Assembly: GCF_022539665.2 (NCBI RefSeq) | Contig: NC_081337.1 | Span: 5,928,679 to 5,992,678 of the forward strand | DNA: 64,000 bases | Source of the DNA: Daphnia carinata | Taxonomy: Eukaryota; Arthropoda; Branchiopoda; Diplostraca; Daphniidae | Direction of reading: 5' to 3' | In this document: one piece after another, positions 3,813-50,259 of the stretch | Position numbering within the stretch: the first letter of the stretch is position 1 | Layout of the letters: every line of letters begins with the position of its first letter | Translations under genes and position numbers: made by a program | Notes under the pieces: generated by a model | The model's database searches: none | What the model was told of the DNA's origin: nothing | Seen by the model: only the letters and a program-made list of their open reading frames with translations

Positions 3813-3888
3813 CTAACGGGCCAGCCAAAAACTAAGTGCACCTCGATACGCGGCAAGTGTAACGGCAAATGGTAGGTGGATTACTTAC
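3813..3888 (-). other. Candidate RS-exon A (76 nt, non-coding)
   Basis: This segment lies between the ratchet junction and a second donor (TTAG|GTAAGA, GT at 3812-3811). It starts GTAAGTAATC and shares the short blocks CCATTTG, ACTTGCCG, GAGGTGC and TTAG with copy B. GTAAGTAA puts TAA in two frames, and the remaining frame is closed by TAG after ACTTAG's first triplet, so no frame is open. In described RS-exons the regenerated donor competes with the exon's own downstream donor, and the exon is normally skipped. If kept, this one would introduce a premature stop. No splice evidence is available from sequence alone. Confidence 0.6.
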
Positions 3889-3930
3889 CTATAAAAATAA
3901 AAAAAAAGAAAATAGAACAGAACATTAATA
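3883..3930 (-). promoter_or_regulatory. Ratchet point A: branch site, 3' splice site and zero-gap 5' splice site
   Basis: Minus-strand reading gives TATTAAT with the candidate branch adenosine at 3925, a tract dominated by T with one C, then ATAG at 3889, immediately followed by GTAAGT (3888-3883). The branch-to-AG distance is 36 nt, inside the usual metazoan range. GTAAGTAA is close to the perfect U1 complement. Juxtaposed 3' and 5' splice sites regenerate a donor after the first splicing step, which defines a recursive splice site. Seen: the motif and its conservation in copies B and C. Inferred: its use in RNA. Confidence 0.7.
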
Positions 3931-4983
3931 AACATGACGTGCATAGCTTTAAAAATAAGAACACAGAATATTATTGAAATTTGAGCGGCCCTCGCATTCG
4001 CTGAAGCGATCCGATTGAACTAAGCTAAAAAAAAACAATTGAGTGGCAATTTGTTTCTTAAGCGAAATGGCTTGTCGAATGAGTCATTCAGAAGTCGAAC
4101 ATCAACAACGGCGAAAACACAATCACAAAAGGCAAGAAAAAAAATGAGAAACCAAATAATAATAAAAAAAATAAACAAAAGAATTGAAGCGGCAATACGG
4201 CAAAAAAGTTTTTGAATAAATATCGTCTACACGCATTTTCGCCTACCGACCGATGGAACGGCTCAACGCCGGCAGCAGCAACAACATCAACGGCTCATGT
4301 TTTCTTTTTCGTTTTTTCTTTTCTTTTTCTATTGTCTGCGTTTTTATAGCTGGTTCAACACTTGTTTTTTGTCTTCCTTTATTTTGTTTTAGTGGTGTCA
4401 TAAAAATATATTCCAACCCAAAACAAAAAGGAGGGGAACGAACAGCGTAGTGGAAAGATTTTTTTTTTTTTTTTTTTTTTTTTGCTGCTGCCGGAAGAAT
4501 CGAACGGACCGCGCAAAGAAGGGGAAACAAACAAAAAAAAAAAAAAAAGCCAAGAGCGATGAAAAGGAGCGTGACAACCAAGCATCTCATCTGTGCGCGA
4601 TCAACTCGGTAGTTAAGTCTCGTGTCAGCGGGTATCGAGCCGGGCCATCAAACAGCTTGACGAAAGAGAGTGTGCGGCCTGGCTTGCACGTTCCTGCTTA
4701 CAACCATCGTACCACCACAACCTTTCCGTCCATCGAACCGACCCGGACACCAGAGCCCCTTGCTTATGCATCAACAAACCACCGCGATCATATTAACGCC
4801 GTTCCGATACGTAAAGACCATATCCATGCAGGCAAAAAAAATAAAATAAAATAAATAAAAAATGGGAAAAGATCCTGGAGACTGACTCGTGGCAATGGCA
4901 TTCCAGAGTCCAACGACACGGAATAAGCCACACACACAAGATAGTCTGAGCAACGTCCGGGAATACCAAAGTAATACATTATT

Positions 4984-4984
<1 letters not shown>

Positions 4985-5018
<34 letters not shown>
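4985..5018. repeat. Poly(A) run, 34 bases
   Basis: Uninterrupted A34 on the plus strand, about 180 bases before the GT/AT compound microsatellite. No retroposon signature was seen upstream. Confidence 0.95.
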
Positions 5019-5020
<2 letters not shown>

Positions 5021-5196
5021 ACGGTATATATAGCCTATAGTCGAAGGCGGATCGATTGTTTGGCTGTGGCGAGTCGGAGTGTTACGGTCCGGACGCCCGA
5101 TGGCGACCCACCACCAGGTGACCCCGGAGTGGCCAACTGCGAGAGGGGCATCCATGGGGGCCTTGTCTCGTAAAATTCACAGCTACGCACAGCCAA

Positions 5197-5197
<1 letters not shown>

Positions 5198-5240
<43 letters not shown>
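5198..5240. repeat. Compound (GT)n(AT)n microsatellite
   Basis: About six GT units pass directly into about fourteen AT units, followed by ACACAAA. The AT portion is self-complementary and could extrude as a hairpin. Confidence 0.95.
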
Positions 5241-5242
<2 letters not shown>

Positions 5243-8200
5243 AAATCTACATATACATATAGAATAGATCTATACAGATGAGCCAACCAGCAGAGCGAGA
5301 AAAAAAAAGAATTGTGTAAATTTTCTCGCTGGTGGTTTGCTATAGTCAGAAGTGGCGCTGTATAACAGGGGGGACTATGCGAAGGTGGTAGAAAGTCGGT
5401 AAGGGGGAAGATGATAACCGAAGGTGTCGGGACCTCTTTGGCCCCAACGCAGCTATTCACCCAAAACTGGCCAGACATTGATGGCTTCAGCATGCATGAA
5501 TTATCCCCTACTTTCTCACTCTACAACGATGGCCCCGTCTCGCTCGTTTTCTCTTCTCCTGCGGACTCAAACCCGGCGCGCGCAAAGGGGTGCTCGCTGG
5601 AGTTAAAAATGTGTTAGACTATGCCACATTACATGATATGTTAGGCAGATATCGGGATAAGTTTCCACGCTCTTTTCCATCCTTATTTCTCACGGTCGGA
5701 CTCTAGCGGGACAAACAATTTCCATGACAATTCAACGCACACGGATGGACCGGCCCATCTTTCCCCCCCCTCCCCTCTTCGAGTTGTTGTTGTTGTGGCT
5801 GGCGTTTATACGCCGATCGTGTAGTACCGTGTTATGAACACTTATATAACACAGAAAACGACGACAACAAGCGGCGGCGTGCCGTTAGCATTTAGATGGC
5901 TGATAAATATCTCAACTCTTTTTAAGTTTATAGTCAAGAGAGTTTCGAGAGAGTCCCAGTTACTGCGCTCCACTTAATTGGTCCAATGTTTTTTATACGT
6001 ACCAGTCCCGCACAAACATAACGCGCGCGAGCGCGCACAGCCACCATCAACCACATGCTGTGTAATTATTTCCCATCGCACAAAGAGAAAAATAAAAAAG
6101 GTAAAAAGAGAATATGAAAAAAAAACGGGGCGGTTTTTTTTTTTTTTTTTGTAGGTTGTTGAAATTTCTGATGTTTTTTTCGTTTAAATCTTGTATACAC
6201 ACGTAAAACAATAGAAGCTGAAGGCAACAATAGGAGAGAAAATGAAAGGATCGAGAGGGAAAAAAATACAAAGAGAAAAATAAAATAAGATGAAACCAAG
6301 GAAATTTATTTTTTTGAGGTGGGAGGAGGTATTGAAGGGAGGGGAACACAAGCAACATCGCTTCCAACTTCTAGTGGCTTTTTTGTTTTAAGTTTTTAGC
6401 TGCTTTACTGGCCTCCAACTCTTTGCAACTTTGCCGAGAGACAAGAAAAGAAAAAAAAAAAAAAGATGCTGGAACAGTTTTTTTTTTTTGAGGGGGGGGG
6501 GGGAGGAAGTTCTGCTGTTTGGGCCAGACAGGTGATGGGGCTTGTCTCAATATTTGAGAGGAGGGAGGTAGGACGGAGGTGGTGCCAGCAATTAACATTT
6601 CGTATTCCACTCAGTTTATTTTGGAACGCTTTGGCGCTTAGGTAGGAAAAAAAATTCAAGGAGAAAACGACGGCCAATCAATTTTTGTTTTCTATTTTTT
6701 TTTTTTAAACACAAAACTATTTTTTGATTCCTTATTTTTTTTTTTATTTAGAAAAAGAAAACGTTTCATCCTCCATCTTTTATTTTTGGACATCTTACAT
6801 GCACTCAAGGAAAAAAAAAAAAAAAAAAGAAAAAAAACCAAATCACTGTCTCCCGATTTCTGCCTGTCCCGCTCTATTGATGCCAACGCATTTTCTTCTC
6901 GTTCCAGGGAGATGTTATAAAACGTAAACGCCTCTCTCGGTGTAGGAGAAGAAAAAAAAAAAAAGAAGGGGGAATGAAAGACAGAGAGATAGCCTTTTAA
7001 GGGGCGCGTCGATAATTGCTTGTAGCTGGCTTTTATAGCGGAGAGTGAGTGAGTATGTGTATACGTACGTTGAGCGTGTGTCTGTGTGTATGTGTTTATA
7101 TGTAGTATATAGCCTTTGAACGAGGCCGAGCAAAAGAGCTTTTTTTTTCTACTTGGGTTATGGGGGAATAAAATAGGGGGGGGGGGGGAAACAAAATCAA
7201 CCAAACGGGGCCTAACCAACAATCACCCAATAACTATCGCAATCAAATCTTTTTGGGCCCCCTTTACATTCATCCTCATTCTTTTGGCGCTGTAGTTGTT
7301 CTTTGACCTACTATAGCATGCTACGACGACAACAACTCATATTTCCCCTTTTTAGAGTTTGATGAATAGATTTCGTGGATGGCCTACGCAAATATCAAAG
7401 TGGGGAGCGTTGCCTTTATGTCGACGCCCCTATGATCATATGTACCCGGATTTGTCTATTCCAACGCAAAAGCGCATCAACAGTAGAAAACAGTGAAAAA
7501 CATTCAATGAAGAAAAAAAAAAAAAAAAAAAAAAAAAGAAGATAACATTTTAAAATAAATGGTGGAAGGGCAAAACAAGAAAAAAAAAAATAAGAGTCTG
7601 ACGTGAGCATTCGACTGTAAACGCATAAAAGGACTTGAAAAATACCGGACAAAAGAAGACACGATGAAGAAGGAATAGAACGAGTTTTATTCAAGGTACG
7701 CACAAGCATACCGATGAGCAGGCCAATGTTGTTTCACAGCAAAACGTTTTCAACCTTGCCAAGACCATTTTTTTTTTTTTTTATACGCTTTTGACGTATT
7801 CAGAAAAAACGAGAGAAATAACTGACGGTCACAAAGAGAAAGAAAAATAAAAAGGGGTTTGGCATGGACCTATTTATATCTCGCCACTATTGTTATTTGG
7901 TGCCACAGTATTGTGTCGTGACGGGCCGGCTACATGTGTAAGTAACAGAAGGGGTCTGCCATTGATTCACATGTGCAGATTCTCTTGCCAAAAATCAAAA
8001 AATGGCTTTTAGGGAGGGTTGACCGGTTGGAACGCATTCCGTCCGCACATCTGCGTCCATCGCGAAACAGCACACCAGAATTCGAACACAAAGGCAACGA
8101 AACAAAAGAAACGTGCATTGCCGGCATAAGGTACACACAAGGAAATACGATCAGTTAGCATCGTCGACAAGAGTAATGATGACTAAGAGTTTATTCTGGA

Positions 8201-11200
8201 TGAGCCTGTAAATAATAGAACCTAAAACCCTATATTCCCCCCCCCCCTCCCTCCAATAATTGTAGGAATACCGTCTGTCGAGAGTCTTTTACACGCTATC
8301 CTTCGTTAATGCAAAGAAAGAAAGAGGTTATTTTCTAATTGCCACATTGGCCTATTTGCTCGACTTTGAGCGAACAAAAACAATTTTTTTTTTTTTTAAT
8401 TTTTTTTTTTTTTTTGCCGTGCCACCCAAACAAACAGATCATCAATCTGATGTTGGGTGTAATTTTTTGTGTTCCTTTTTTATTTTTTTTAATACCAACA
8501 TCCGGATACCTTTAATCCCCGCCCATTCCCTAACTAGAATCAACAGGTTAGATATATGTATTTATATTTTTCTCTTTCTCGCGCGCGGCATGTGTGTCTG
8601 CGTGTGTCCGTGTGCGTTTGTTATCGGCACCCGCCGACATCCGCGGGCAGCGGCAACATACTCTGCGCTCCTGCGACTCGCATTGCTTTTTTGTTTTAAA
8701 ACAAAACAAAAAAAAAAAAATGATTCGGTATTTCTTCACTATTTTTCAAGGAACAGTGATTCATAACGGCAGGACCAAATCTGGGCCGTCGCCTTGTTTG
8801 CCCGTCTCACGAAAGAAAGTCTTCAAAGAATATTTTGTTTTTTTTTTCCCCTTACGTGTGCGTACGGCGGCCCATCACCACAGAGGGTCAAGAAAAAAAA
8901 AAAAAACAGAGATACGATCCGACGTGCCTTGCTATAGGAAAATAGTTGTTTTCTCGCTCCCTGTGTGTAGCACATTTATACACCGTCGGAGGATGAGGAA
9001 GCCTCTTGTTAATTGCATTTCGAGGGCTACCGGGTAGCTTGTTCTTGTTTTGCTCCTACTGGTAGCGGCTGTCGTGCCGACGCGCAGAGGAGGACGCAAC
9101 AAAACCAACGGGCCCCTCCGAACCAATAGCAACGAGAATGGGGAGGGCAACTCCTTCGTCGGGACGTGAACAGAGTGTCTAGAATCCCGTGCGCTCTTAT
9201 CGCGGTGAACAAGTCGAGGTAGAAGAAGAAGAAAAAAGAAAAAAACCAGCAGCTACTACAGCTGCACTATTCATCATCATAATTCAACGGGTGCGAGTGC
9301 TGGAACAAGAAAAAGATGAGGTAAAAAAAAAAATAATAATGCGAGATAAGGCAAAAAAAAAAAAAAATGAAAACTGAAAACAAGAACAACGAAAAAAAAA
9401 AAACAACTCGAATTTGAAGATAATATACTGTCCAAAGAGAAAAAAAAAGAAGTTTGGGGTTCATTTCCCTATGTATTACTCAGTGCCAACCCTTTTGTTT
9501 ATCCACTCCCAAATGGCGGATGCCACATTTGTTTCAAAAAAAAAAAAAAAAAGGAAGGAAAGAATTTTTACCTATGGACATTTATTTTCCTGTTCCAAGC
9601 CTTGCTGTAAAAATTTTCTTTCTCTCCATTTTTCTTTTTTTTTTTGGGGGGGGGGAATACAAGTTCTATCAATATTTTTACGAAACACGCTGATGTTGCG
9701 TGAAACAACAAAAAGAACACGGCAATAAAGAGACGAAAAAAAAAAAAAAAACTCGTTTAATGGTTCTGTGGAATCATTAAAATTCATTAAAAATCATTCG
9801 AATGTCATGTTGCTTGAACAAGCGGCCGGGCAACTGGAATTTGACCACAAGAAAGGGGCAATTATCGAAAGACTGATAGAATCGCATCGACTGGCTAGAC
9901 AACTAGTCAATCAAAATTTTTCGAACCTTTATTTCTTCTTTTTTTTTTTTTTCCTGATTTCCCTCATTGATTATTCATCAATCAAAATCAATCACAAAAA
10001 AAAGGAAGTAGAAAGAAAACGATTCGAAGTGAGTTGTCTACGTCAACGAGTGGGAGGGCTGAACACTTTATTGGCAGCACTGATTGGCAGGTACATTCCT
10101 CCTCCCTGGCGAGAGTCTCTTTTCTTTTGTCACGTCTCGGCAATACACAATCGCTGGTGGTAGGGGCAGCATGTTTCTCGTGTGTGTGGAAACTCTCGAA
10201 TGACATGGACGAGATAAGAATCGGCCTTATCTGGTTAGTGCAGATACAACGGCACTCGGACTCTCACACCGTCGTGCCACAAAACTTAGACACGTCACGT
10301 CTCGGGACCCGGTGAGAAACGAGAAACTAATCGACCGCTGCTAAGAGAAAAGAGGTGCAGCTTGATGTAACCTTTTTTTTTTTTTTTTTTTTGGCTGGTT
10401 GAATTGAAAAAAAAAAACATGTTCCTTATGTCCTTTCATTTTTTTTTTTTTTATTAGTTTAAGTATTTTTTTTTTAAATGGATCAGCGTTTGTAATTTTT
10501 AGTTCGTCCCTTCGCCGTGTGTTTGCAACGAGAATAGACATTCCAAATAGGAGCGGACGCTTCTCGTAGTCGTTGAAGCGTTTGACTTGGACAAAACGAG
10601 AAAAAGGTAGACAGGAGGAGAGGAAAAAGAAAACAAGCGAAAAAAAAAAAAAAAAAAAAAAGTAACAGAGAGAAAGAAAAAAAAAAAGAAAAAGAAGAAG
10701 AAGAAGAGAAAAGGCATTTGTCAGGGCTTTGAGGTCGCTGGAACTTTCGGGGTCGACGGGTGGTCTTTTTTCCCCCTATATACCGAAAGCGACTTTGACT
10801 TACTACTCTTTCCATTTTGAAAGGCAATGGAGAACAGAGCGACTCGAATATTTCTCTCGTTTTACCCCTCCCTCGTTTCGAAACCACCTCCAGTCCTGCC
10901 TGACTCAAAAACTTTAGTCATCTCAAAACAAGAAAAATGAAAAAAAAAAAAAAAAAATAAAAAAAAATAGGAAAGGTAATACAAGAAAAACAACACGGAG
11001 GGAATATAGTTTTTTTTCGGATAGAACCGAGAAAGACGGGGGGTTGAAAAAGCAGCAACGCCCCGCGCGAGACGAACTCGCTCATAACAACAACCATTTG
11101 CCAAGTGTCCGAGGTAGGAAAGAGAAGCCATCCACACATAGACGGACTCTTCTCACACATCCATACAAGAAAATAGAAAATGAACAAGGAATAACAAGAA

Positions 11201-12113
11201 GAATAGAATGGAAAAACACATGCAACCAACAAACCGTCTAACAATACAGAGTGGCAACAAGAGGAAAGAACATAAAGAAAGAAAAAAAAAAAAAAAAATT
11301 TGGAAAGAATAGAAATAAAAACATTTCCTTCTTTTAAAAGAGGAGAGAGCCAAAAAAAAAAAACAAAAAAAACAAAACAAGTTGTGTTCAACAAGAAGAA
11401 GAGGAAAAACGATGACCACCGCGGAGCAAAAGAGCGGCGCGAGCGTGCCGTCTGGCCGCAATCTGCGCCAACCCATCGTTGTGGTTTGCTGACCCATCAA
11501 CTGGACGGGTGCTAAACATAGCCACAAAACGCAATAGCTGCAGGACAGGATCTTGAGCTGTTTTAAGAGTCGATAGGGCCTATTCAAAGCCAGCAACCCA
11601 ACGTGCAAACAGATTAGATAAGCTATTCATTTTTCTTCCCTTCTCCTGAACTTTTTTTTCCCCTTTTTCTTCTTTCCTTTAAAATAGAACCCCGATGGAA
11701 CAATAGCTGAGAGGAAAAAAAAAAAAAAAAAAGAATCTTTGGATGAGCGCAATAGTTTTGACTCTTTCCGTTTTGTGAGAAGCTGCAAACAAATCGGTTC
11801 GACTCGAAAATCAAAAGGGCCGGTCCTTTACCCTCCCTAAAAATCCGCCTCCTCTGTATGTTAGTAGGTGGGACAGCAATAGAACTAAGAGTCGTAAATC
11901 AAAGAGCCAACGATTCGATCCTTTTAATGCGAACAAACGAGTCGTACTTAAAAAAAAAAAAAAAAAAAAGTCTACTAGAAGCGCGAGTTGCGCGCTCCCT
12001 CAGCGAGACAGCACTGATAGGGGGTCAGCACAGACGGCCCAGGCATGCGGCCAGCATCAAACCCACGAAAGATCTTGCTGTTTTGCTGGCGTCAAACACA
12101 TAGTTAGCAGCTG

Positions 12114-12145
<32 letters not shown>

Positions 12146-12326
12146 TTTAAGTTTGTGGTAGCCCTACCAAGAACAAGGAAAGCGCTTTAAAAGTCCAAAA
12201 CGCTGATCGTGACAGATTAGAACCGAAAATAGACAACCAACCACTCGGCTATATTTATTGATCTTGCATGCAACAAGAGTCCCGACATCAAACCGGCCAT
12301 CTGCCCATAAGTTTGGACATTAAGTG

Positions 12327-12329
<3 letters not shown>

Positions 12330-12359
<30 letters not shown>
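12330..12359. repeat. Poly(A) run, 30 bases
   Basis: Uninterrupted A30 on the plus strand following TAAGTGAGC. One of several 30-base-class runs. Confidence 0.95.
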
Positions 12360-12364
<5 letters not shown>

Positions 12365-14854
12365 GAGGCGTCCGGGTCTTGTGTATTCGGCAAGCGCCGA
12401 GCAATTTATACAGACACATATTCAAGCTGGGGGGGCCAGAGGTTATCTACACTCGGAGGGGATTCTTGTGAGTCTTGTGTGAAGAAAAAGAGAACCCCCA
12501 ACCGGACAAGAGCAATTACATCTATCGGAATTCCTTTAATTTATTCATATCTTTGAAATGACTCGCGGGTCGTGGAGCGAACGGGCTATTTCGGGATTTA
12601 TTACTATTTTCTTTTCTCCCCTTTCTTTCTTTTCATTGCCTCCCACTCCCCCACCCTTTCTCGTACGACGCAGATCTCCGTTTTCCCATTTTTTTTTCTC
12701 TGTAAAAAAAAAAAAAAAAAAAAAAGAAGTACCAAGAGGCTAAGAGTCGCGCGCTCGGGATGCCCGGGTCAGCGGGATATCGACACGCCATGAAGGCGAC
12801 TCTTTCTTGCGAGTTTATGCAAACAAGAAACTATCTAAAAAAAAAAAAAAGAGACAGTCTAGTAAGAGAGACAAGAGACAACGTGGAATCGATATAAAAA
12901 GTCGTTTACACTGATGATGATGATGATGAAACATCTCTCACAACATCCTTCGTATGTACGCTAAAAAACAGAATTGTGTGTGTTTGTGTTGCGAGGGGAG
13001 AAAAAAAAAATGGAAAAAGAGGGCCAGTTTGACCCATCACCCTGTGCGACCATTTATCTTCCACCTCGTTCCGTCTGTGTACCACCAGCATCAGTTGGAC
13101 CGCGCGGGAAACGGACCCATTGCTATTTGAAAAAAATAGAGAGAGATAGGCGAAAGAGAGAAGGCCATTCGATAGAGCGATTGTCGGTCTGGAAGAGAAG
13201 AGAAAAAAAAAAAATATGCCGCGGCTTAACGAAAAATAAATTTGAAAAAAAAAAAAAATGCGTTTGTTCATATTCCGTCATCGTCGAAAATGCATTTGGT
13301 TTTTTATATTTTTGGGTGAAAAATACGCCTTTTTATTCGATTGAGACTTGCGCTTGGGTCGGTTCGACGTTCATCAACGAGCCGAGATGTTTATTTATTT
13401 TTATTTACACCACCTTTCTTTTTTTTTTTTTTTTTTTTCTTATTCCCTTCCAATAATCATTCCTGACACGACGGAATTCATTAAACTTGTGTTAAAAATC
13501 CCGGAGAGACCGGTTTTCTATCGGCAAAAACGCCGACTGGCTGCGCTGCCTGACTGACCAGTTTACAGCTAGTCACTGACCGCAGCCACCGCCTATTGCT
13601 CTCTCTCTTTTGCGAGCACGCGCCCGCCCGCAACATGAAAACGTTTCTCACTCTACACGTCTGTCGCAGTCAAGTTTAGCGTTCCCAATCAGATGAAAAT
13701 AAGAAATAAAAAAAAAAAGGGAGGGAGGAATTAAAGAGCTTCACTTTTTCAAAAGAAAAATCAACGTAGATGACGGGAACGTGTAAAGAAGATAAAAAGA
13801 AAAGAGGAGAAGAAGAATGAAAAGTAAGACGTAATCATCTGGCATCTCTTCCGAAGCTCGATTGCCTTCCGAAGAATACTGACGGAGGACGGCCATGCCC
13901 AACTCGTTGCAATACAACATCAGAAAACGACGGGGGAAGGTTTACACGAGACTAACATAAAAGACCTACACGCCGTATGCGCTATGGGTATGGGAACGAT
14001 CGAAACGAGAAAAAAAAAAAAAGGGCAAGTCTCTTTTCATTTCTCTATTGATAGGTGCAACTCCTCCCACTCGTCACATATAGAAAAGACGTAAATGGAG
14101 ACTGTGTAGACTCTCTCGGTGAAGGAATAAAAGAAAAATGAATAGGAAGATCAGAAAGACACAGAATTCAAAATGAAGACGTAACATCATCGAGGTAGAT
14201 GTTGCCGAGTCAGAGGTTTAAAAAAAAAAAAATCGGTAGACATCAACAAGCAAAAAAAAAAATGTTCACTTCTTGTTTTCTAAAAGTTACTTAGAAAGTA
14301 TTAATGAATTAAGAAAATAAGATACCGAAATTTTAAATGGAGGGACGAGATAAATGCCAAGAAGGGCTCCTTTCTTAAAAGACCATAGTCTTAGTCAAAT
14401 GAAGAAAGATGGAGGAACAAAAAAAAGCGATGTCGACAGACCAACTTTGATTGTGTTTTCGTCCTCAAGACGCTTTTCTCTTAATGGTTAACAAAGGTAG
14501 AAAACTTGAGTATAGTTTCGTCGTCATTTCCCACTTATCACAAATGGATGATATCCGCTAGCTGCTGTGTTGCGGCACCGTGGTTAGCGAGCTCTAGCAT
14601 TTTATTTTATTTTTTTTGTTTCTTATCGTGTCCGACACGCTTGTTAAGTGTTTGTTTAACTGTACGGGGCAAAGACTTTAAGTGTAGAACCTTGGCTTTT
14701 TTTTTTTTTTTTTTTTCTTTAGTGACCTTTTAAAGGTAGAACCGATGAATCAAAATAGAACTCCTCAGGGCAAAAGGTATGGCGTGTCACACACAGACAC
14801 ACACAAAGACTAGAAATAAAAGAAACAAGCGGAAAAAAAATGTCCAGTTCTTTT

Positions 14855-27751: not shown

Positions 27752-29499
27752 GATTTCTTTTAATATCACTCTTCCGCCGTTGCGCAACACTATGTAATCA
27801 ACGAAAGGCTCGATCGTGGGGGCTACCGAGCGTAAAGATGCTGCGTATCATTTCAGAAAAAAAAAAAAAAAAAAAAAAAAAGTGGGTAGACGCTTCCTTA
27901 GAAAGACATGCCCCAAACGCATTGAACATTGTGATTTTTTATTCCTCTCATTATCAAAAAATTTGTAGGAACCCAGATGATCGTGGGAAGAAAATTCTAT
28001 GCAGAATGCTGCAACAGCCGTGCCGATAGAAAATGCCCGAAAGCGGTCGACGTATCCGCATTTGATTTTTTTTTTTTTTCCAAAGAGAAATTAAAAAAAA
28101 AAAAAAAAAAGAAAAAAAGGTGGGTCCGTACACGGGGACGATCAGTCAATGTGTGAGAGGGGACGTACTCTATACTAGCGGTTGAGGGATAGCAGAAGAG
28201 TTCCAAAACCAGCAATTAGCGGGATTTTCTGAATTTTTTTTTTTTCTCTCTTCTTATCCTACCCCATTCGTTTTTCCCGCATGCAATGTGTTCCCCTACC
28301 CATGTACGCGCATTCCTTTTTATTTTTTTTGTTTGGTTACACCGCAGTACAACAACAACAACAGCAACAATGCAGACAGCACAGAACAAAACTCGTGTCT
28401 AATTGCACCTGGCGATTTGTCTTCTGACGCTGAGGGGAAAGGAAGACGCACAACAAAATGAGCAGAGAGGGCAATAACAAAAAGAAAGAAAAAATCTCAC
28501 CCACTGCTATTCGGCCATGAGAAACATGAGAAGTGTTTAAAGACGAAGAATAGAGCAAAAGCGCAGATTAGTAGTAGTTGTGAATTGCTCTTATGTATTA
28601 TTAGAGGTGCGTAGGCAGGAGAGAGAAGTATGTAGCCTATGAGAAAGGGTGGTGGTAAAACGAAAACGTTTATCGTCCTTTTTAAGCTATTGAGTCAGAG
28701 CGACATCTGTTGGCCTTCTTTACTTTGGTAGAAAAAAAAAATAAGAAAAGAAAAACAACAACAAAAAACTCCCTCAGATTGAGCGATTACCGGACATGCC
28801 CGCCCCGGCGATTCGGTCCTGGCCGCATTCTTTTCTTCTTAGATGCGTGTAAACGTTTTGGGCTATTTGGGAAAATAAAAAAAAAAAAAAGAAAGAAAAC
28901 GGATGGAGGAGAAGAACAAGTCCAAGAAAGAGCCCCACATTCGAAACACACTATTTCTTAAACAAGGCTTTCTTTTGTTTTGTGTTTTTTGCTTAAAAAT
29001 TCGAATCTAACGGTGTGAGCCATCTGTCGACAGCAGTGCGCACTCCTTTTGTGCTGTGTGTGTGTGTTGATTCTTCCTATTTTTTTTTTCTCCTCATCGT
29101 GGTAGAATATATATAATACGTTATGAAACATGTTAAGACCTGTCTATAATACGAAACCGTATTAATAACAGCGCGCCTCGGCACATTGAAAAAGAGAGGC
29201 GCCACTATCCAATCAACAATTACGCCGCCCCAAATACGTAATAGGAGCATTGCGTTCTACAACAGTAATCAATTTCTTTTTTTTTTTTTTTGCTCCCGTG
29301 GCTTCATTACCAAACGTGGCAGGCCTTTTTTTTTTTTTTTTTTTAAATCGCTTCAGTACTGAGATTAACCGACTCCATTGAACCAATTTCACAACAACCC
29401 CCCCGCCCCCGCCCCCCCCCCCTCCTGTCTGTTGCTAACATTGCGCCGGCTCCCGTTTTGGATTTAAAAATAAAGAATGTCGGTTGCCTCGTTTCTTAC

Positions 29500-29582
29500 C
29501 TGTGGTGTCCCCCGCCCGATTCTAAACGCACCTCAATTCACGACACGGCAAGTAGAATGGAAAATGGTGTATGGTTACTTAC
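29500..29582 (-). other. Candidate RS-exon B (83 nt, non-coding)
   Basis: The segment begins GTAAGTAACC and ends CACCACAG before donor GTAAGA. CAG|GTAAGA is the best-scoring exon-end donor of the three by eye. Internal blocks shared with A are CCATTT, TACTTGCCG, TTGAGGTGC and TTTAG. Those shared with C are the GTCGTG/GTCGTC area and CCAC.AG at the 3' end. Two frames are closed by the TAAs of GTAAGTAA and the third by a TGA in TCGTGA. It is therefore not a coding exon, and any inclusion should trigger nonsense-mediated decay if it occurs within a coding transcript. Confidence 0.6.
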
Positions 29583-29619
29583 CTAGAAAAAAAGAAAAAA
29601 GAAAAACGTGACATTAGTA
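29577..29619 (-). promoter_or_regulatory. Ratchet point B
   Basis: Minus strand: TTTACTAATG with branch A at 29614, then about 25 nt of T/C, then CTAG at 29583 fused to GTAAGTAA (29582 downward). The branch-to-AG distance is 31 nt. This is the cleanest pyrimidine tract of the three copies (only C and T after the ACG near 29607). The sequence around the branch (CATGTTTACTAATGTC) is nearly the same as in copy A (CATGTTTATTAATGTT), so conservation extends to the upstream side of the acceptor. Confidence 0.73.

Positions 29620-40752: not shown

Positions 40753-40838
<86 letters not shown>
40753..40838. repeat. Very long (CT)n tract, 86 bases
   Basis: A near-pure CT dinucleotide array with one CTTTCTTTC interruption near 40791-40800, ending at ACAGGC. 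All-pyrimidine on plus and all-purine on minus with mirror symmetry, so capable of triplex (H-DNA). On the plus strand it ends in CTCTCAC|AG, which resembles an acceptor, but there is no exon beyond it. Confidence 0.97.
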
Positions 40839-40841
<3 letters not shown>

Positions 40842-41468
40842 GGCTAGAGCTAAAAGTGGCTTGGTCACCACTCCTTCTCCACCTTATTATGAACACCACA
40901 CCCTGCGTTAAGGGGGAGAGAGAGAGAGAGAGGGGGGGGCTCCTTGGCTCCACGGGCGCGCGTTATGTATAGTTGATTCTCCAATAATAATAAGACTTGT
41001 GTACACAATGGACCTATAACAAGGCTCTATTTAACAATCAAGAATGGGTCGTTCCCTAGCTACCCACTACTGCTACCCTATAAAGAATGGCGACGTCAAA
41101 GGTAAAAGGTGAATTAACATTACGTAGGCTCCCAGTTACGGAACTACTGTATCGACGTAGCGGCAGGTAGACATGTCAAACGTGGTAAAAAAAAAAAAAA
41201 AAAAAAAAAAAATGGCTGGCAAGTCACGAACGGTTCACGTCATTTAACAATCCCTTTTTAAAATTTCAAAATTCGCCCTCCCATTTTCCAATAAAAAAAA
41301 AAAACAAAAAACAAAAAGGACATTGGTTGTTGTATATTGCGTCTCATAAAAAAATTTGAATCAACGGCTGCTGTACCGCCTGTTTTTTTTTTCTTTCTTC
41401 TTTTCCTCGTTGCCAACTCTCTCACAACAGCACGTCCCCCTTATTTCCATACACAGACAAACGACCGA

Positions 41469-41476
<8 letters not shown>

Positions 41477-41499
<23 letters not shown>
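41477..41499. repeat. (GA)n microsatellite
   Basis: About eleven AG units following ACACACAC. Confidence 0.9.
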
Positions 41500-44263
41500 T
41501 GCTGCGTTTGATACTAACGTCCCGCTGCATCGTATCAAGTCATTGACATATCGACCGTTGTCCGGACGACGCCATGTGTGTAACCCCCACCCTCTTTATA
41601 TTATTACAGCCTTGCCTTTAGAGTGCCAGCAGCAAAGGCTGAACGCCCAGCAGCAGAGAATGAGAGATGAAACTAACGTTAGATGGTGGGGGGTGGGAGA
41701 ATAAATGGCACGGCATACCCAGGGCTCCCAACTGCAAACGTTCGTTGTTCTAGCTGACCGAATCTGTCGTGAATATTACCCATCATACCCCTCTAGTTTT
41801 TTTGTTTTTTTTTTTGTGTGTGTGTGTGTGTGTAAGTTACTTTTGATAGGAACGGCAGTCGACAACCTGCATCGAGCGGGGTAACCGCGTCGATTTTTGA
41901 AAGGAGAAAAAATAAAATAAAATCGACCGCTTTTAAAAATACGAAGGAAGTAGGAATGAAAAAAAAAAAAAAAAAAGGCTGATGCACTGCGCTTGTATGC
42001 AGCAGTGCTACTTTCATTCACATGATCCCTGAATCATTTCAAATGTCGTTATATATATATTTTTTTTTTAGCATTCTCCTTTTGCTGGTAGTGATCGATA
42101 TTTTATTTCTTAAAAAATAAAAAAAAAAAAACGAAAGAAGAAAAGAGTTTCCCTCTATAAGCCTTTATGTAAAAAATACATACGTAGTCCCGCGACGCCC
42201 CGAACATTCGTACCACCAAAATCGATGGTCGACAAAAAAAAAAAAAAAAGATAAACACAAGAATTTTTTTTTTTTTTGGGGGGGGGGGGGGGACGACGAG
42301 GAAAGGCCTCAACGCTAACAACGCCGCACGTTCCCGAGAGAAACCATTTGTGTGCTAGTAAAGAAAAAAAAAAAAAAAAAAAAAAAAAAATCGAACACGG
42401 GACACGAAAAAAAAAAAAAAAGGCTAGTAGGCCTAACACTAAGCATGAGAATCAACACACACAAAAAGAAATGCGGCGTCACGGTCGTCGAGCTTTGCGA
42501 CAATGGCACAGCCGCGACTCCCACAAGAGGCGAATAACAAAAAAAAAAAAAAAAATAAAAAAAAAAAATAAAAAATTGGCCGGCAGTTCGTTTTTCTTTT
42601 TGCAGCGGGAGCACTAGACACACACACTGTCTACTGTATACACACATATTCCGCTGTTGTTCCTCCCTCTCTCTATACACCGTGTCTTGTCGTCTATTTC
42701 CAACGTTCCCGTGGCACCCCCCCCCCCCACCCTTTTTTATCGACGGCTGACGAGGCCAATTATTTTCTACACGCAGGACGAGTATAGTGAAGACACGTGT
42801 TGGAATAATTTCCTCTCCGTTGAACTCTCGGCAGCCGAGAATTTTTGGTAGGGGGCTCCTGCGCTCGCTTTTGATGGCCTTTATGCATACACGTAGATAT
42901 GCGTGCGTTTCCGTCGCGCGTCCAATGTCGATGGATTCTTTTTTTTTTTTTTGTTGTATCATTGTTATTATTATTCCCTTCTTTTGTTGTTTGACAAGTC
43001 ACGTGTCCCTTTTTTTTTCTTCTTCTTCTTCCCTTTTGTGCGTGTGCGACAGCGAAAGTTAGGGAAGAATAAAAAAAACAAAATATTGGACCTAATCGTC
43101 GAGATGAACGATCGTGAAACGCGCAATTCAATTTCAAACGAGTGGGGAAAAAAAAAAAAGAAAAGAAAAAGAATGATTGGCTCTATAATTCAAGCGTGTA
43201 GGCAACGAAAGAAGCCAATAGGTTCGGAAACAACTGTGCAACTCTAAAATGAAAAAAAAAAAAAAAAAAAAAAAATGATCAAGAAAACCTCCCGATGTCA
43301 TCCCTGCTCTTACAAAACGTACATAATATTGATTCTATTAACATCCAGTGGGTCGAAGAGTCCCCCCCCCCTTTTTTTCAGCCTCTTCAATCAGGAAGCC
43401 CAGTCCTGATTATCACCGTCAAAGACAAAAAAAAAAAAAAGTGAAAAATAGAGAACCGAAGCAAAAGATCTTTGTTTTTTAGTTTTCAGCAAGACTTCCT
43501 CTTTTTTTTTTTTTTTTTTTTTTTTAAATCCTTCCTTTCTCCCATCTATCGAGATTTTTTTTCTAATTTTGCAATTCTCTCTGTCTTTCTTTTTAGCTCT
43601 GGAAAAAAGAAAAAAAAAAAAATTATAAACAAAAAGGGAGAGAGTCATTAAGAGTCATCTCTTTTTTTTTTTTTTTTGTTCCAGCAAACCCCTGTGTCTT
43701 TGGCTGGATGCTTCAGTAATTAAAACACGCCGGCTGATTGTCAAGTCATCAAGAATAGGGAGAAAGAGAGCGAGAGGGAAACAGACAGAAAAGAGGGTTG
43801 ATGTCCTTGTGTATCTGTGTGTGCACTCTGTGTGTTGTGTGCATATGTGTATAAACGCGATGCGTGCCGGTAGGAGTTGCACAGCTCTTGTTTAGTTCAT
43901 CGTGATGGCTTCCAAAACATCACAAAAGAATACGCGGAGAAAGAAGGGAGACAGCAAAAAAAAAAAAAAAAAAAAAAATAAAATATATATAGAAGTGCGT
44001 GTCCTTTCTACACGGAAGCCTTGCGGATGATCCCTCTGTGCTGACAATTCTTCATACACACAGATGGAGAGGCAACTCTTTGATCAGAGCTGCCCTTCCA
44101 TGCTGCCCCTGTGAGTCGAGATGCGTTCTACTCTCTCTCTTTCCTTTTTTTTTTTTTTTTTTCTCTCTCTTAGTTGGAGTTCTTCTCCTTTTGTTTCTAA
44201 GAGAAGAAAAAAGAGAGTGAATGATTACGCAGACAGAGAGTCTACCCGAATAAGAATAAAGCG

Positions 44264-44293
<30 letters not shown>
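44264..44293. repeat. (CA)n microsatellite
   Basis: About fourteen AC units followed by an A-run. Confidence 0.93.
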
Positions 44294-44297
<4 letters not shown>

Positions 44298-44428
44298 AAA
44301 AAATCAGTGCAAGAGAGAAACCAAAGCTATAAGTCGTCTTGACGTTGTGGATTTTCAAATGTTTCCACTCAAGTTGGCTTATATCTCTTCGGCAACATAT
44401 ATGTGCATGCCACCCCCCTTTTTTTCGC

Positions 44429-44479
44429 GTGTGTCTGTGTCTGTGTCTGTGTCTGTTTCTGTGGCTGTGTCTGTGTGTG
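44429..44479. repeat. (GTGTCT)n hexamer array
   Basis: Roughly eight GTGTCT-type units with substitutions (TTTCTG, GGCTG) toward the right end. It is the only clear hexamer microsatellite in the window and yields Val-Ser or Cys-Leu periodic peptides in the open frames across it. Confidence 0.9.
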
Positions 44480-45359
44480 GTGTCTTTCGATGTAAGCAAA
44501 CCGACCCTCACAAGCATTGGGGAGCTAAAGACACGCCAGAGTGGAGAACATATTCCGTCGCTTCCAATCAGATCTGCCATCATGTGTAACATCCTCGTGA
44601 CCCCGAGCGTTCACTCGCCTCGTACAGGACAAAAAAAAACAAAAAAAAAAAAAAAAACAAAAAAAAAAAAAAAGAAAGCTGGAATAGAAGGAGAATAATC
44701 GTAAGAAAAAAAAAAAAAAACGAAAAACAAATGAAAATGGAGCCGAGACGGTTGTTTGCATAGAGCCACGTCCGCTTTACGACGGCAGCTATTATCGAAG
44801 TCGATTAAGAGTCGAAACATTATGAGCATCTATACAAACAGAGTTTTAACGCGTACACGGGTGTTTAATAACAGAGCGACGTCAGTGTTAATTCGATCAT
44901 GTCCGTTGCGCTGGGACCGACTGAAAAGCAACTCGGTTGATGGTGCGACGATTATTCATTGTTTTCACGGGCTCAATTTTCAAAAATAGAAGCGCAACGC
45001 GCAACGAGATCCGTCAAAAACGGCCAGCTGGTTAAGTCATCTCGAAATGACACACAATCGAATAGAATTGCAGTGGCGTAAACCGGAAGTTTAATCAGAA
45101 AACAACATCGGGGAAAAAGAGAAAAGAGAAAAAAAAAAAAAAAAAGTTTGGCGTTCAGCGGAACAGGAGGGATGGAGCTGACGGCGGCGATCTACATAAT
45201 ACACCGGATCGCATTAAAATATCATTTCAATACGTTGAGCTTCTACTACAGCAGGGTCCCTTCTTTTTACGTGCGCCTATGTTTCTAGCTGATATATCTG
45301 TGCGTTTGTCAGCTGCTGCTCTGCATCTGTCAGGGCGGGGCTATAACTGATTTTGCCCT

Positions 45360-45388
45360 TGCATATAAGCAGTTGGTCTTTATATGCA
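45360..45388. repeat. Inverted repeat, 9-bp stem
   Basis: TGCATATAA (45360-45368) and TTATATGCA (45380-45388) are exact reverse complements around an 11-base loop. Each arm holds an ATGCATAT-like, POU/TATA-like sequence. It lies in unique sequence rather than a microsatellite. Function unknown. Confidence 0.85.
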
Positions 45389-46397
45389 TTGAAATAAAGA
45401 AGAAAAAAACAAAAAAAACAAATCAAATGGAATAATAAAAAAAAAAAAAAAAAGAAGAAGAAATCCCACTCTAGCCTTTCGCTGGTCTTCTTGATTTTGT
45501 TTTTTTGTTTTTTCCGGGTCGTTCCATAACTTTTGGGGTCTTTGTCGTCGCGCTATCTCCTCGCTTTTTTTTTTTTTGTTTTGTTTTGTTTCGTTTTTCT
45601 GCCTCAATCTATCAAGGGTATAAATATATAGGCCTATTTTATACGTCTGGCTGTAGGTTTATTATCAAATAGCTTCCAAGATCAGATTAGATCCAATCCC
45701 AAAAAAAAAAAAAAAAAAAAATGCCTCGACGTCCAAAAGGGTTTCCCTTAAACTCTAGCGGCGCCTTCGTCACGATTTATTGCCGACTCTTTGTTTTTGT
45801 TCTTTTTTTTTTGTTTTTTTTTTCCTTCTCGTTTGACTGGTCAACATTTTATTTGAACCTCTTAGCCCTGGGGTAAGAATAAAAGAATAAAATTTAAAAA
45901 AAAGAAAAGGGAAAAACAACAAAATAATCGGAAATTATACAAAAAAAAAAAAAAAAAAAAAAAAACAAAACAAAAAAAAAACAAGAAACGCTTTGCCGCA
46001 TTTTCCAGCTGTTTCGAACGTCCTTTTTTGTTCTGCTGGGCTATATATACGCGCATCTATTATTAACGGGCAATAAATGTATTTAAATAGAAACAAAAAC
46101 AAAACAAAACCAAAAAAAAAAAACGTGTTTTTTTCTTTTTTTTTTTTTTTTTTTTTTTTTTTGAAAAGTCTTCCTGATTTGCTCGGCATTGTTGTTGATT
46201 GGATAGCGATAGAAAATCGAGTATTAGAGAAGAGAAACCTGCAAGGTATGTAAACCCTTTTTAAAGGGGAACAGAGCCGGCTCCGACGCCTATAGGCAAC
46301 GAAGGTAGGCTATCCAATTCGAAGAAACGCCCTTGTATGTTATCAACCGATAATTCACGATTCCTTGAGGGATAACGAGAATATAGGCAAATAAAAG

Positions 46398-46417
46398 GAA
46401 GAAGAAGAAGAAGAAGA
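46398..46417. repeat. (GAA)n microsatellite
   Basis: Six or seven GAA units. Similar GAA tracts occur near 10690-10706 and 27296-27312. Confidence 0.88.
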
Positions 46418-46956
46418 AAAAAGAAGCACACCTTTTGTCGCAGTAAAAGCTAATCAAGAACCAGTAAACAAAATCAAAAATAGCCGCTGAAAGAAAGGAA
46501 AAAAATAAGGGAAATCAAGGTGAACACGCACAAATTCTACGACATTCATTGAAAGGGGCCAACAGTTCCAAACCTCGAGGGCATTTTTGATTTTTGATTG
46601 CGTTATTATTATCACCATCATTGCACAGGGTTGTTTTTGTTTTTAAAATTCAGGAGGGCTAGACAGCGTCTCCCTTGTATCATTACGGATAACAAGCCTA
46701 CAAGAAAACCATTTGGAACTCTTCGTTAGCATCACGATAGATGGCGTTGGAACGTTTAACGAATCATAAAAAAAAAACACAAAAATAGCTTTAAAAAAAA
46801 AAAAAAAGAGGGGGTTCTTCTCTTCGGTTAGAAGAGACTCTAAGAGTCCTTTCCATTCGTTAGCCAGAAAACGAAAAAGAAAAAAAAAAAAAAAAAAAAA
46901 AAAACACGCAACGTTCCATCAACAATCACGTCGAAGAGGTGTACATATATCCCAGT

Positions 46957-46965
<9 letters not shown>

Positions 46966-46987
<22 letters not shown>

Positions 46988-46989
46988 GG
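46966..46989. repeat. (GA)n microsatellite
   Basis: About twelve GA units with an imperfect AAAG interruption at the left end. Confidence 0.88.
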
Positions 46990-49900
46990 AGAGGTAGGAA
47001 AAAAAGAAAAAAAAGAATAGAACGATGAAGAGGAAAAAAAAAAAAAAAAAATGATAAAAATAACGAGAGAGGCACAAGAGGCTAGCTAAGGCTCGTTGAG
47101 AACGAAGGTTCCAATCAGCGGAGAGTCTAAGGGTGCGGCGCGGAAACCATCACGAAAAAAGAAGAGGAAGAGAAAAAAAAAAAAAAAAAAAAGTCCATAA
47201 AAAAGAATTGTTTTTTTTTTCCCTTCATTTTCAAAACTCTGTTTTTTATTATTATTATTCACTGTTCTCTTCGATATTAGTCTAACAAGGCGCCTCTCTT
47301 TCTCCCACAATAACCGCAGCACACACACGAACGCAGTCCGCCCGCTTACGAGTTCGTGAGGCGTTTCGAGCCACTTGCCAATATGAATATATTATCAACG
47401 GGTATTTTTTTCTTTCTTTTTTTCTCTTTCCCCTCCCTACACGCCCTCACACACAAATCCATTTTCTAGAGGGTTTGCTTCGATTGATAAACAAAGGGGT
47501 CGGGGCCGGCTGGGTGGCTTTTAATTGGTTTGCGCAAATGGGAAAAGACGTATTTTTATTTGATGAGTTCCGTCGCACAAGGCCAGCTGTCTGATGGCAC
47601 TCGTCCCGCGCGTCAATTTCCATTTCAATGAATCCAATCCCGCGTAACCATCCGCTTTACGATCACCCCCCCCACACACACACTTTTGCCTCCCTGTCCA
47701 TCTTCCAACTCTTTCAAGCGCCCCGTTCAAAAGGAGGCCCTCCCGATCATCATAGCGTCGCATCGAAAAAGAAACAGGCCAAAAAAAAAAAAAAAAAAAA
47801 AAAATGGAGAGGCCATATGCGTAAAAGACAAGCGTGAATACGCTTTGGTGCGGCGCTTGCAGGCCGGAGCGGCCAGCCATCCCCGTTCTTCTTGCGCCCC
47901 GAAAAACGCGTATGAAAGCCCGCAATCTGGCGTGAGTAATTTCAAAAGCGACTGGCCTCTGCTTGACTGATAATTGGCCGCATACTCAGCGCCGCTTTTA
48001 AAAGCCTATCACCATTCACGCCGACCGCCTCCGATATATACGAACAATTCCGCCCTCTCGTATACTTAGTTGCGTGAAAAGAGGCATGTGCTGTAATTTC
48101 GAGTCTACCATTCTCTCTCTCCCCCCCCCACCCTTCGCCTGTTTACAGCTCAATATTCAAGAGAAAATGTTGGCTGCGATTGAGAAAAAAGAAAAAAAAA
48201 AAAAAAGAAGGTTAAAAAAGATGGAGCTTTCAATCAAACTGAAAAAAACCTCGGTTAAAAAAAAAAAAAAAAAAAAAAACACATGACTTTAATATGCAAA
48301 ATAAAAAGATAAGTTGCAGTAGGAAGCAATTTTCAAAGGGCTCTACTTGGACCGTACGGCTTGCATTTCATAATTCAATTCAACGTCTTTTGATTTATAT
48401 GCCCGATTCGATTAAAAAAGCGAAACCAGCGTACAGAAGAAAAGGGATGGGGTTTACTACTTCCTTGTGTAAGAAAGGGTCCATCCATCTCCCCACCCCC
48501 CTCAACCATACGTCCTCTTTAGCGATCCTAATTAAACCGAGTCGGCAATAGCTGTGATGCAGCAGCAAGAATTGATCAAGACCGATGCTCAAAGTGCATA
48601 CGGGCACTCTCTCTCTCTCTCTCTGTCTGTCCTCGTGATTGAACATCTCCCTTTCCCGCCCCCTCTCCCCAACCCCCCTTTCAATTCTACACACTTTCGT
48701 TCATCGTCGAAAGAGACGACCGCATCGACAAGATGTTGCAAGTCACGTCTGCGTTCGACAGACGTAGACAACGTCAAAATATAGCGTTCCAGGTAACATC
48801 GAATGACGCACAGCATCATCTCGCTTGCGTCCCTCACGGCCTCGTCTACAAACAGGCACGAGACGCTCCTTAACTTGGCCTGCGCACGGTCTGCCGCCCT
48901 AACGATCGAGCTGCACAAAAAAAAAAAAATAAGCAGATGGATTGCGCGTCCAATGGAAATCATATCAGAAGAATATAGAAGAGAAATGGTTGAAAACAAA
49001 CACAAACACATCAAAATGATCAGAGATTTCTTCTTTTTGTGCGGAATAAGACTAAGTGTCATGCGATACGGGTCGAATAGCAAAAAAAAAAAGAAGATAA
49101 AAAAAAAAAAAACCACGGGGATAACAAAAAGAGAGGCCTTTCGTTTGCAGAGTAACATGAAACCGTGCGTCCCTCTCGTAGTATTTTCATACGCGCACAA
49201 ATCTATGTGCACAGCGAGAATAACGTGCCGACGTTTTTCCCTACACACATATGCGCGTCGATAAAAAGATGCGGAAAAGGAGACAGCCATTAAAGAGAAC
49301 AAAGCCTTCTGCCCCCCCCCCCCCCCTCCGCAGTGGATGTACTACAAACATCAACAAAAGAGAGCCAGATAGAAAAATATCTGTGCACTCTTCTCTTTTT
49401 TTGCCTACAGAGAGCGAGGAGAATGAAAACAAAACAAAACAAAACAAAAAAATAAAAAATAAAAAATAAAATAAAATATGAGAGGGTAGGAACTACGCAA
49501 ACGTGCCTTGTCAACACATCAATGAAGCTGCCAATCCGCATCGAGCATTTCCCGCTGAATCTTCCGTTTGCGGTGCTACGCGTATGTGCTCGGATGATTA
49601 TCGTTCACTTACAATTGCGACCAGACGGACTGTGCGGGGCCGAATGTCCAGAAAATAAAAGTAAGAAGAAACGACGTAGTTGTGCAGCGTGATAAGAAAG
49701 AATCGAAATAAATCGGGGCTTTTCATCTATGCCACTCGATTTTTTATATCGCCAGTCCTTGTCCAAGTAGTGCTGGGATATGTCAAGAGAAGATGGTTAC
49801 GACTCGAGGAAAAAAAAAAATTAAACGGTGGGCAGGGAAGGGGCACTTTGGGAAAAGTAAAAACAATTGCCGCTATGTCCAATCACGAAATACCGTTGAA

Positions 49901-50135
49901 TCCCCTCCCCACCACAAGAGGAGCATCGCGTTAATGTACCGCAGTAATCAATTCACTTCCGTGGTTCTTCGTTAACGCCTTCACTATCCAAACAATCGAG
50001 GTACGTAAAAGAGCTGACTCGGGTTGAGCCAATTGCGAGATTGGTCCCCCCCCCTCCTTCCTTTTTGTCGCTAAACGCATTGGCTTCTCCCCCCCCCCCC
50101 CCCCGTCTTCGTAGGAAATAACGTTTGCCTCTTAC

Positions 50136-50217
50136 CTTTAGTGGTCAGACCCCGGTGTAAACATCACATCAACGCGACGACACGTACAATAACAAATGGA
50201 GTAGTTTGATTACTTAC
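50136..50217 (-). other. Candidate RS-exon C (82 nt, non-coding)
   Basis: The segment starts GTAAGTAATCAAAC and ends CCACTAAAG before GTAAGAGG. It shares CCATTTGTTATT, GTACGTGTCGTCGCGTTGATGTG and GTTTAC-type blocks with B, with substitutions. Two frames are closed by GTAAGTAA and the third by TGA in GATGTGATG. Its length is within one base of copy B. Similar length plus loss of all open frames in three copies argues against a coding tandem-exon array. Confidence 0.58.
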
Positions 50218-50259
50218 CTAAAGAAAAAGAAACAAAGAAAAAAAAAAAAGCCGTTAGTA
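50212..50259 (-). promoter_or_regulatory. Ratchet point C
   Basis: Minus strand: TTTACTAACGG, an exact match to the strong branch-point consensus TACTAAC, with branch A at 50254. It is followed by a long T tract with a few C and G bases, then TTTAG at 50218 joined without a gap to GTAAGTAATC (50217 downward). The branch-to-AG distance is 36 nt, the same as in copy A. All the signals a spliceosome needs for the first ratchet step are visible. Confidence 0.73.

Follow-up and report, generated by a model that had tools for sequence, protein, structure and literature searches.

Three probable recursive-splicing ratchet points, apparently copies of one module, in the 119-kb first intron of Ephrin in Daphnia carinata

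The Ephrin locus and its two first exons

A 64,000-nucleotide stretch of the Daphnia carinata genome, hereafter the window (contig C7, 5928679-5992678, in a genome of 108 Mb and 106 contigs, of which C1-C10 measure 7.9-14.4 Mb each), lies in the interior of the predicted distal first intron of an Ephrin gene, and contains three minus-strand sites with the architecture of recursive-splicing ratchet points. A preliminary description of the window, made from its letters, had reported three such sites, each with a branch motif 31-36 nt from an AG/GT junction (a slash marks splice junctions throughout), and all of them were found, exact to the base. For the search for a host gene, 100 kb per flank was added to the window, giving a region of 264 kb, and a coding-segment (codon) scan was run. 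The coordinates of all features are collected in Table 1.

Downstream of the window, the minus strand encodes the receptor-binding domain of an ephrin in what is taken as exon 2 of the gene; its product also matches ephrin chains in PDB (ephrin-B2 and others). A search of the whole genome for the Ephrin domain gave two matches, one strong and one weak (E 1.76), both at this locus, and no match beyond it. Two first exons, distal and proximal, each encode a start resembling a signal peptide and the first part of the Ephrin domain; the distal one ends in the letters ...CCAACCCAAT. The acceptor of exon 2 reads CAG/ATTCCGG. Because both first exons end in the same phase, which is that in which exon 2 starts, either junction would read NPI/FRIDNTDH. 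Neither first exon nor exon 2 lies inside the window. The distal intron, predicted from the exons located in the genome, is 119,461 bp long. All three sites lie between its donor, upstream, and its acceptor, downstream, and it thus supplies the giant minus-strand intron that had been postulated around the window. The proximal intron is about 18 kb long, and a listing of its AG/GT sites contains no donor match of 6/7 or 7/7.

The encoded ephrin has its best matches in the ephrins of Daphnia magna and D. pulex and is identical to neither. We inspected 13 of 120 listed entries for proteins of relatives and aligned eight of them. P0004 (303 aa, longest contig 2,068 nt) starts MSPESLVYLFLLLID...LSDIYWNSTNPIFRIDNTDH, that is, with distal exon 1 joined to exon 2 and no insertion. 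An uninterrupted frame on a contig this short points most simply to spliced RNA, and, judged by this protein, exact joining of distal exon 1 to exon 2 is something that occurs in a relative. P0001 (D. magna) and P0002 (D. pulex) have the proximal type of start, and P0003 (D. magna), with MLIET right before FRIDNTDH, fits neither of the two exons. In Artemia, two proteins that share one name represent the two types, P0018 being distal-like (DIYWN) and P0017 proximal-like (VHWNTT); P0008 is distal-like and the termite protein P0011 proximal-like. Since both types of start occur among Artemia and other relatives, the two first exons of Ephrin look old.

Csk was the first candidate for the host gene and was dropped, as the Ephrin exons lie between the Csk-like gene and the window. 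This gene, a Csk-like tyrosine kinase with SH2 and kinase exons (C7:5870302-5872274, minus), is on the same strand downstream of Ephrin; its SH2 exon, 60 kb downstream, has Csk identity. Long open reading frames in the window were also considered as exons and set aside, for they look low-complexity and the codon scan in the window reaches 14.6 at most.

Three ratchet points in the distal intron

The junctions of the ratchet points (RP1, RP2 and RP3, belonging to modules 1, 2 and 3) stand at 50218/50217, 29583/29582 and 3889/3888. The distance from the branch A to the end of the AG is 36, 31 and 36 nt, respectively, all three branch motifs fit TAYTAAY, and at every site the acceptor AG directly abuts the strong donor GTAAGT. 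The distal intron is thereby split into 31,685, 20,635, 25,694 and 41,447 nt. The two inner distances agree with the step lengths, about 21 and 26 kb, that had been put forward for the window; two further steps (31.7 and 41.4 kb), both partly outside it, now join that pair. Stepwise, or recursive, splicing, the interpretation first offered, appears on the evidence of motifs, host intron and phase to be the one best backed. In our judgment it is very probable that the 119-kb first intron of Ephrin holds three true ratchet points, that the recursive-splicing exon (RS-exon) following each of them is skipped, and that the sites are copies of a duplicated module. The sites do not look like bare zero-length exons, since each comes with its own cryptic RS-exon inside an apparently duplicated unit. 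The downstream AG/GTAAGA donors, the mutual likeness of the sites and the host gene are absent from the preliminary description.

Table 1. Features of the three modules and of the Ephrin gene. Positions are those of the window unless marked C7.
Feature	Position	Strand	Remarks
Module 1 branch motif	50253..50259	-	TACTAAC, branch A 50254
Module 1 pyrimidine tract ending AG	50218..50252	-	91% pyrimidine between branch A and AG
Module 1 ratchet-point donor and cryptic RS-exon	50136..50217	-	GTAAGTAA; 82 nt
Module 1 RS-exon 5' splice site	50128..50135	-	AAAG/GTAAGAGG
Module 1 downstream island	49842..49993	-	
Module 2 branch motif	29613..29619	-	TACTAAT, branch A 29614
Module 2 pyrimidine tract ending AG	29583..29612	-	90% pyrimidine between branch A and AG
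Module 2 ratchet-point donor and cryptic RS-exon	29500..29582	-	GTAAGTAA; 83 nt
Module 2 RS-exon 5' splice site	29492..29499	-	ACAG/GTAAGAAA
Module 2 downstream island	29180..29315	-	
Module 3 branch motif	3924..3930	-	TATTAAT, branch A 3925
Module 3 pyrimidine tract ending AG	3889..3923	-	85% pyrimidine between branch A and AG
Module 3 ratchet-point donor and cryptic RS-exon	3813..3888	-	GTAAGTAA; 76 nt
Module 3 RS-exon 5' splice site	3805..3812	-	TTAG/GTAAGAAA
Module 3 downstream island	3547..3690	-	
Ephrin distal exon 1	ATG C7:6010693, donor C7:6010580	-	ends ...IYWNSTNP, AACCCAAT/GTAAGT
Ephrin intron 1 (distal isoform)	C7:6010580 to C7:5891120 (window +81902 to -37558)	-	window is its interior
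Ephrin proximal exon 1	ATG C7:5909317, donor C7:5909060	-	ends ...IHWNTTNP, AACCCCAT/GTAAGT
Ephrin exon 2, receptor-binding domain	C7:5891119-5890809	-	Pfam PF00812, E 1.6e-28

A candidate fourth ratchet point (RP4), outside the window at C7:5914367 on the minus strand (window -14311), has CAG/GTAAGTTA and a pyrimidine tract. If used, it would divide the last step of 41.4 kb into 18.2 and 23.2 kb. It was rejected as a fourth module, having neither a GTRAG-type donor nearby nor any RS-exon likeness. Within the window, at 18656-18647 of the minus strand, a lone AG/GTGAGC follows a pyrimidine-rich stretch, with no branch motif or partner donor in the letters inspected.

Likeness among the three modules

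The three sites look like copies of one module, roughly 450 nt long, in which functional-looking parts have been kept and the spacer has diverged. RS-exon interiors, from which GTAAGTAA and the final AG were left out, were compared against GC-matched placements in the region. The likeness of RP2 to RP3 was reached by 0 of 10000 such placements, that of RP1 to RP2 by 2 of 10000 and that of RP1 to RP3 by 213 of 10000, with 1 of 3000 for the three-way comparison; a first test, with other scoring and a null that included self-overlaps, had given 4, 8 and 699 of 2000, the last figure being that for RP1 and RP3. The branch region is alike only in RP2 and RP3 (1 of 3000, the other pairs giving 876 and 1447 of 3000), no pair is alike in the stretch from -200 to -60 (629, 859 and 1570 of 3000), and the 100 nt past the RS-exon donor show modest likeness only (43, 477 and 70 of 3000). 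Some 200-400 nt downstream of the junction lies an island whose likeness is reached by none of 4000 null placements in each of the three pairs, within limits fixed after a first look at the alignment; a cruder earlier cut gave 0, 0 and 79 of 3000.

RS-exon interiors and islands are colinear across the modules, with order and orientation kept. Among the columns kept in all three are AG/GTAAGTAA, AG/GTAAGA and the greater part of the branch motif. Profiles built from the RS part and from the island place only the three modules above the inclusion threshold in the 264 kb. When the intron is compared with itself, 21 matches reach E 1e-4; the pair RP2-RP3 heads them, at E 1.7e-10, and RP1-RP2 is among them. 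Comparisons of the 8 kb surrounding the sites show, apart from these, mostly runs of T or A. Duplication would be the simplest source of this likeness, and the retention of the module parts suggests constraint.

The islands have AATTGATTAC, TCCT.TT and more short words in common. Words like AATTGATTAC are of the kind bound by homeodomain factors, and the islands might bind factors at the level of DNA or RNA. Folding of six sequences, islands and RS-exons together, gave z values from -0.95 to +2.01 and no stable fold, and the fold of the island alignment has 23 pairs, three of them with a change kept on both sides, and an unfavourable covariation term. No Rfam family reaches its gathering score in the window, and two stretches of 701 bases, one around module 1 and one around module 3, yield none with the limit raised to E = 1. 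One could read the modules as duplicated regulatory DNA, for example copies of an enhancer, whose splice-like motifs are secondary or vestigial: there is a second conserved island outside the splice signals, it holds words of homeodomain type, and it gives no signal of RNA structure. The splice motifs, however, are kept in all three copies, whereas vestigial ones should decay like the rest, and we consider this explanation quite improbable.

Clustering, strand bias and occurrence in the genome

The strict pattern YYYYNYAGGTAAGTAA occurs three times in the window where 0.01 occurrences are expected, and none of 100 shuffles reaches three. In the 108-Mb genome, on both strands, it occurs 11 times, three of these in the window, compared with 14 for its reversed control; the motif is therefore not enriched genome-wide, yet strongly clustered here. 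A full pattern, composed after the sites had been seen (branch motif, tract, AGGTAAGTAA and AGGTAAG 55-90 nt on), matches the intron three times in sense and never in antisense. AGGTAAG by itself is not enriched in the window (6 against 5.0 expected; 38 of 100 shuffles reach six). All six are on the minus strand, forming three pairs of a ratchet point and an AG/GTAAGA 76-83 nt on, so that the unusual feature is the arrangement of AGGTAAG and not its count. Over the intron of 119.5 kb there are seven in sense and none in antisense, namely the three ratchet points, the three RS-exon donors and candidate RP4.

Base composition follows the same strand. The plus strand is A-rich, and the sense strand accordingly T-rich, in every 6-kb bin from C7:5894679 to 6008679, whereas all but one of the 11 bins in the downstream flank have a skew close to zero or negative (bin 5882679 has +0.094). 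As the skew runs about 20 kb past the distal exon and reappears further upstream among other minus-strand genes, it backs the reading of the region as an intron weakly.

Elsewhere in the genome, none of the eight other strict matches has TAYTAAY or a second AGGTAAG within 200 nt. With looser motifs, L024 alone among them has YTRAY together with GTRAG, at +130, and its tract is just 50% pyrimidine. Four of the eight (L028-L031, on C22, C49, C82 and C98, not on the ten largest contigs) are copies of one repeat that holds TTCTTTCAGGTAAGTAA. A relaxed pattern matches 28 places, compared with 23 for its reversed control. These are RP1 and RP2 (RP3 does not match), five places inspected with the strict set, twenty more that were inspected, and C10:3193060, which was left out; none of the twenty has both a YTRAY branch-like motif and a downstream GTRAG donor. 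No other case of the full arrangement was found among the genome-wide motif matches examined. Lacking a clear excess of such sites, this genome does not look like one in which recursive splicing is common, and weaker ratchet points may occur in other long introns.

The same searches bear on the idea that the modules are transposable-element copies, or that T-rich sequence has produced such a resemblance by chance. The intron does have a T-rich minus strand, and a pattern for the RS-exon core has 89 matches in all (6 exact, including the three modules, and 83 with one mismatch) compared with 45 for the reversed control. But chance does not yield three sites in any of the 100 shuffles; of the 86 other core matches, none coincides with a strict or relaxed place, and none of the five that were read holds AGGTRAG. 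A DNA query with RP2 returns from the genome only RP2 itself, in a search insensitive enough to miss RP1 and RP3 too, and a gapped island pattern matches modules 2 and 3 and nothing else. Neither the genome, by this insensitive DNA search and short patterns, nor the 264 kb, by profiles, thus yielded further copies of the module. A chance or transposable-element origin is in our view hardly credible.

Cryptic exons and donor strength

The distance from the ratchet point to the next AG/GTAAGA is 82, 83 and 76 nt for RP1, RP2 and RP3, and none of these lengths is divisible by three. Each RS-exon has stops in all three frames. When placed after exon 1 (...CCA AT/G TAA GTA A), every RS-exon reads ATG TAA, a methionine and then a stop. 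The RS-exons therefore do not behave as coding exons of the expressed, Ubx m1 type, being neither frame-preserving nor open when included. Residues 1-44 of the distal form, used as a query, retrieved both of two candidate proteins, P0004 and P0121. The latter, from a public contig, carries the distal first exon and ends ...DIYWNSTNPM at a stop; this ending may come from unspliced DNA or RNA, or equally from inclusion of an RS-exon.

Donor strength was taken as the energy of the duplex with U1, a simple energy estimate and not a splice-site score. By this measure the donor of exon 1 has -5.4, the ratchet donors in their unspliced context -12.2 to -12.4, a ratchet donor rebuilt on exon 1 -7.0, and the RS-exon donors -9.5, -11.5 and -9.6. 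Each ligation step betters the donor of exon 1 (from -5.4 to -7.0). Since the RS-exon donor outscores the rebuilt donor, either skipping needs more than donor strength or the RS-exons are sometimes included.

Such figures invite the view that these are ordinary alternative poison exons of 76-83 nt that switch off the distal isoform; the GTAAGTAA with which they begin would then be incidental, and splicing would not be recursive. Strong RS-exon donors, an immediate in-frame ATG TAA, lengths not divisible by three, and interiors more alike than chance in RP1-RP2 and RP2-RP3 are all as this view would have them. Yet a poison exon has no need of GTAAGTAA, which stands right after the AG in three of three copies, and distances of 20-30 kb in a giant first intron suit ratchet points. 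We regard plain poison exons as unlikely. Expressed and cryptic RS-exons of the fly are, as described in PMC8605326, one kind of object, so that a poison exon would partly be a mode of the ratchet points we favour and not wholly a competitor to them.

A model for stepwise removal of the intron

If the three sites are ratchet points, transcription from the distal first exon would bring them into use. In each case the acceptor would first be recognised together with the donor 76-83 nt downstream, by exon definition of the cryptic RS-exon. Distal exon 1 (...AACCCAAT) would then be spliced to the RS-exon, creating the rebuilt donor AAT/GTAAGTAA, and the next step would use this rebuilt donor, not that of the RS-exon. 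The intron would leave in four pieces (31.7, 20.6, 25.7 and 41.4 kb), or in five if the weaker fourth site divides the last into 18.2 and 23.2 kb, and exon 1 would finally meet exon 2, reading NPI/FRIDNTDH. Use of the sites in splicing, the order of the steps and the normal skipping of the RS-exons are what we infer. Only the isoform from the distal promoter crosses the sites, which makes the proximal isoform a built-in control.

Several observations weigh against this model. The rebuilt donor (-7.0) is weaker than the RS-exon donors, so that competition of the fly type alone is no guarantee of skipping. Taken alone, the likeness of the RP1 and RP3 RS-exons is weak (213 of 10000, and 699 of 2000 with the other scoring). 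Neither the largest step (41.4 kb) nor the initial one (31.7 kb) contains a strong site. There is little or no genome-wide excess of sites resembling ratchet points (11 against 14 in the strict search, 28 against 23 in the relaxed one). Finally, the codon scan scored Ephrin exon 2 at only 15.7, close to the 14.6 reached by segments in the window, and extra small exons may lie inside the intron.

A more speculative possibility, to which we give limited credence, is that the three modules act in series as a gate for the distal Ephrin isoform, with the shared interior and island setting the choice at each step. As exon 1 ends in AAT, the rebuilt donor would be weaker than the RS-exon donor at every step, and the choice would be made three times over. 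Each step would then either go on, toward a productive ephrin, or include the RS-exon with its immediate stop ATG TAA. Under such a scheme, ratchet points would multiply by duplication as an intron grows, not one by one.

Comparison with known systems

In the literature consulted, most descriptions of recursive splicing concern fly, human and mouse, and motif surveys cover a few other animals. Enrichment of ratchet-point sites in large introns is reported for fly, mosquito, bee, beetle and sea urchin in PMC2773006, whose species table has no crustacean and whose text has no occurrence of "daphnia" or "crustacea". Among open-licence literature, in titles and the openings of abstracts, we found nothing on recursive splicing in Daphnia or crustaceans, in ephrin, or on duplicated ratchet points, subscription papers being outside this scope; the words "paralog" and "duplicat" have no occurrence in the main text of PMC6110457.

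According to PMC6110457, 63% of introns longer than 40 kb have a high-confidence recursive site, and first introns are enriched. Intron 1 of Ten-m, with five sites, and the 55-kb Tet intron, with three, are like the Ephrin intron in being long introns divided into chunks; fly recursive segments average 9.1 kb (PMC6110457), whereas those of the Ephrin intron would measure 20-41 kb. The density of ratchet points is 2.2 per 100 kb in large fly introns (PMC2773006), against three in the 119 kb of the Ephrin intron, all on the sense strand.

In Drosophila, a ratchet point depends on a cryptic RS-exon some 50 nt long, which is itself skipped (PMC8605326). The sites in kuz, Bx and Ubx, as given there, share with those of Ephrin the juxtaposition of acceptor and donor, a long intron, and a short cryptic exon, generally out of frame, with a donor of its own. 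The microexons m1 and m2 of Ubx likewise place several RS elements, whose donors stand at exon 5' ends, in a single giant intron of about 73 kb; they are 51 nt long and add peptides (PMC8605326), whereas the Ephrin RS-exons, at 76-83 nt, run at once into a stop. In the fly, donors at ratchet points are generally stronger (PMC8605326); by U1 pairing, the Ephrin ratchet donors outscore the RS-exon donors in the unspliced context and are weaker than them once rebuilt on exon 1. The content of fly RS-exons is poorly conserved (PMC8605326), in contrast to the Ephrin sites, which resemble each other down to the RS-exon interior and the island.

What is found here is thus a known mechanism, as it would seem, in a crustacean gene, with an unusual architecture of duplicated modules; the new element is the repeated module with its RS-exon and island. 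A complete set of sites in a crustacean intron would carry recursive splicing to another arthropod group. If the modules are copies, they bear on the origin of new ratchet points in growing introns, and on whether the interior of a cryptic RS-exon carries information.

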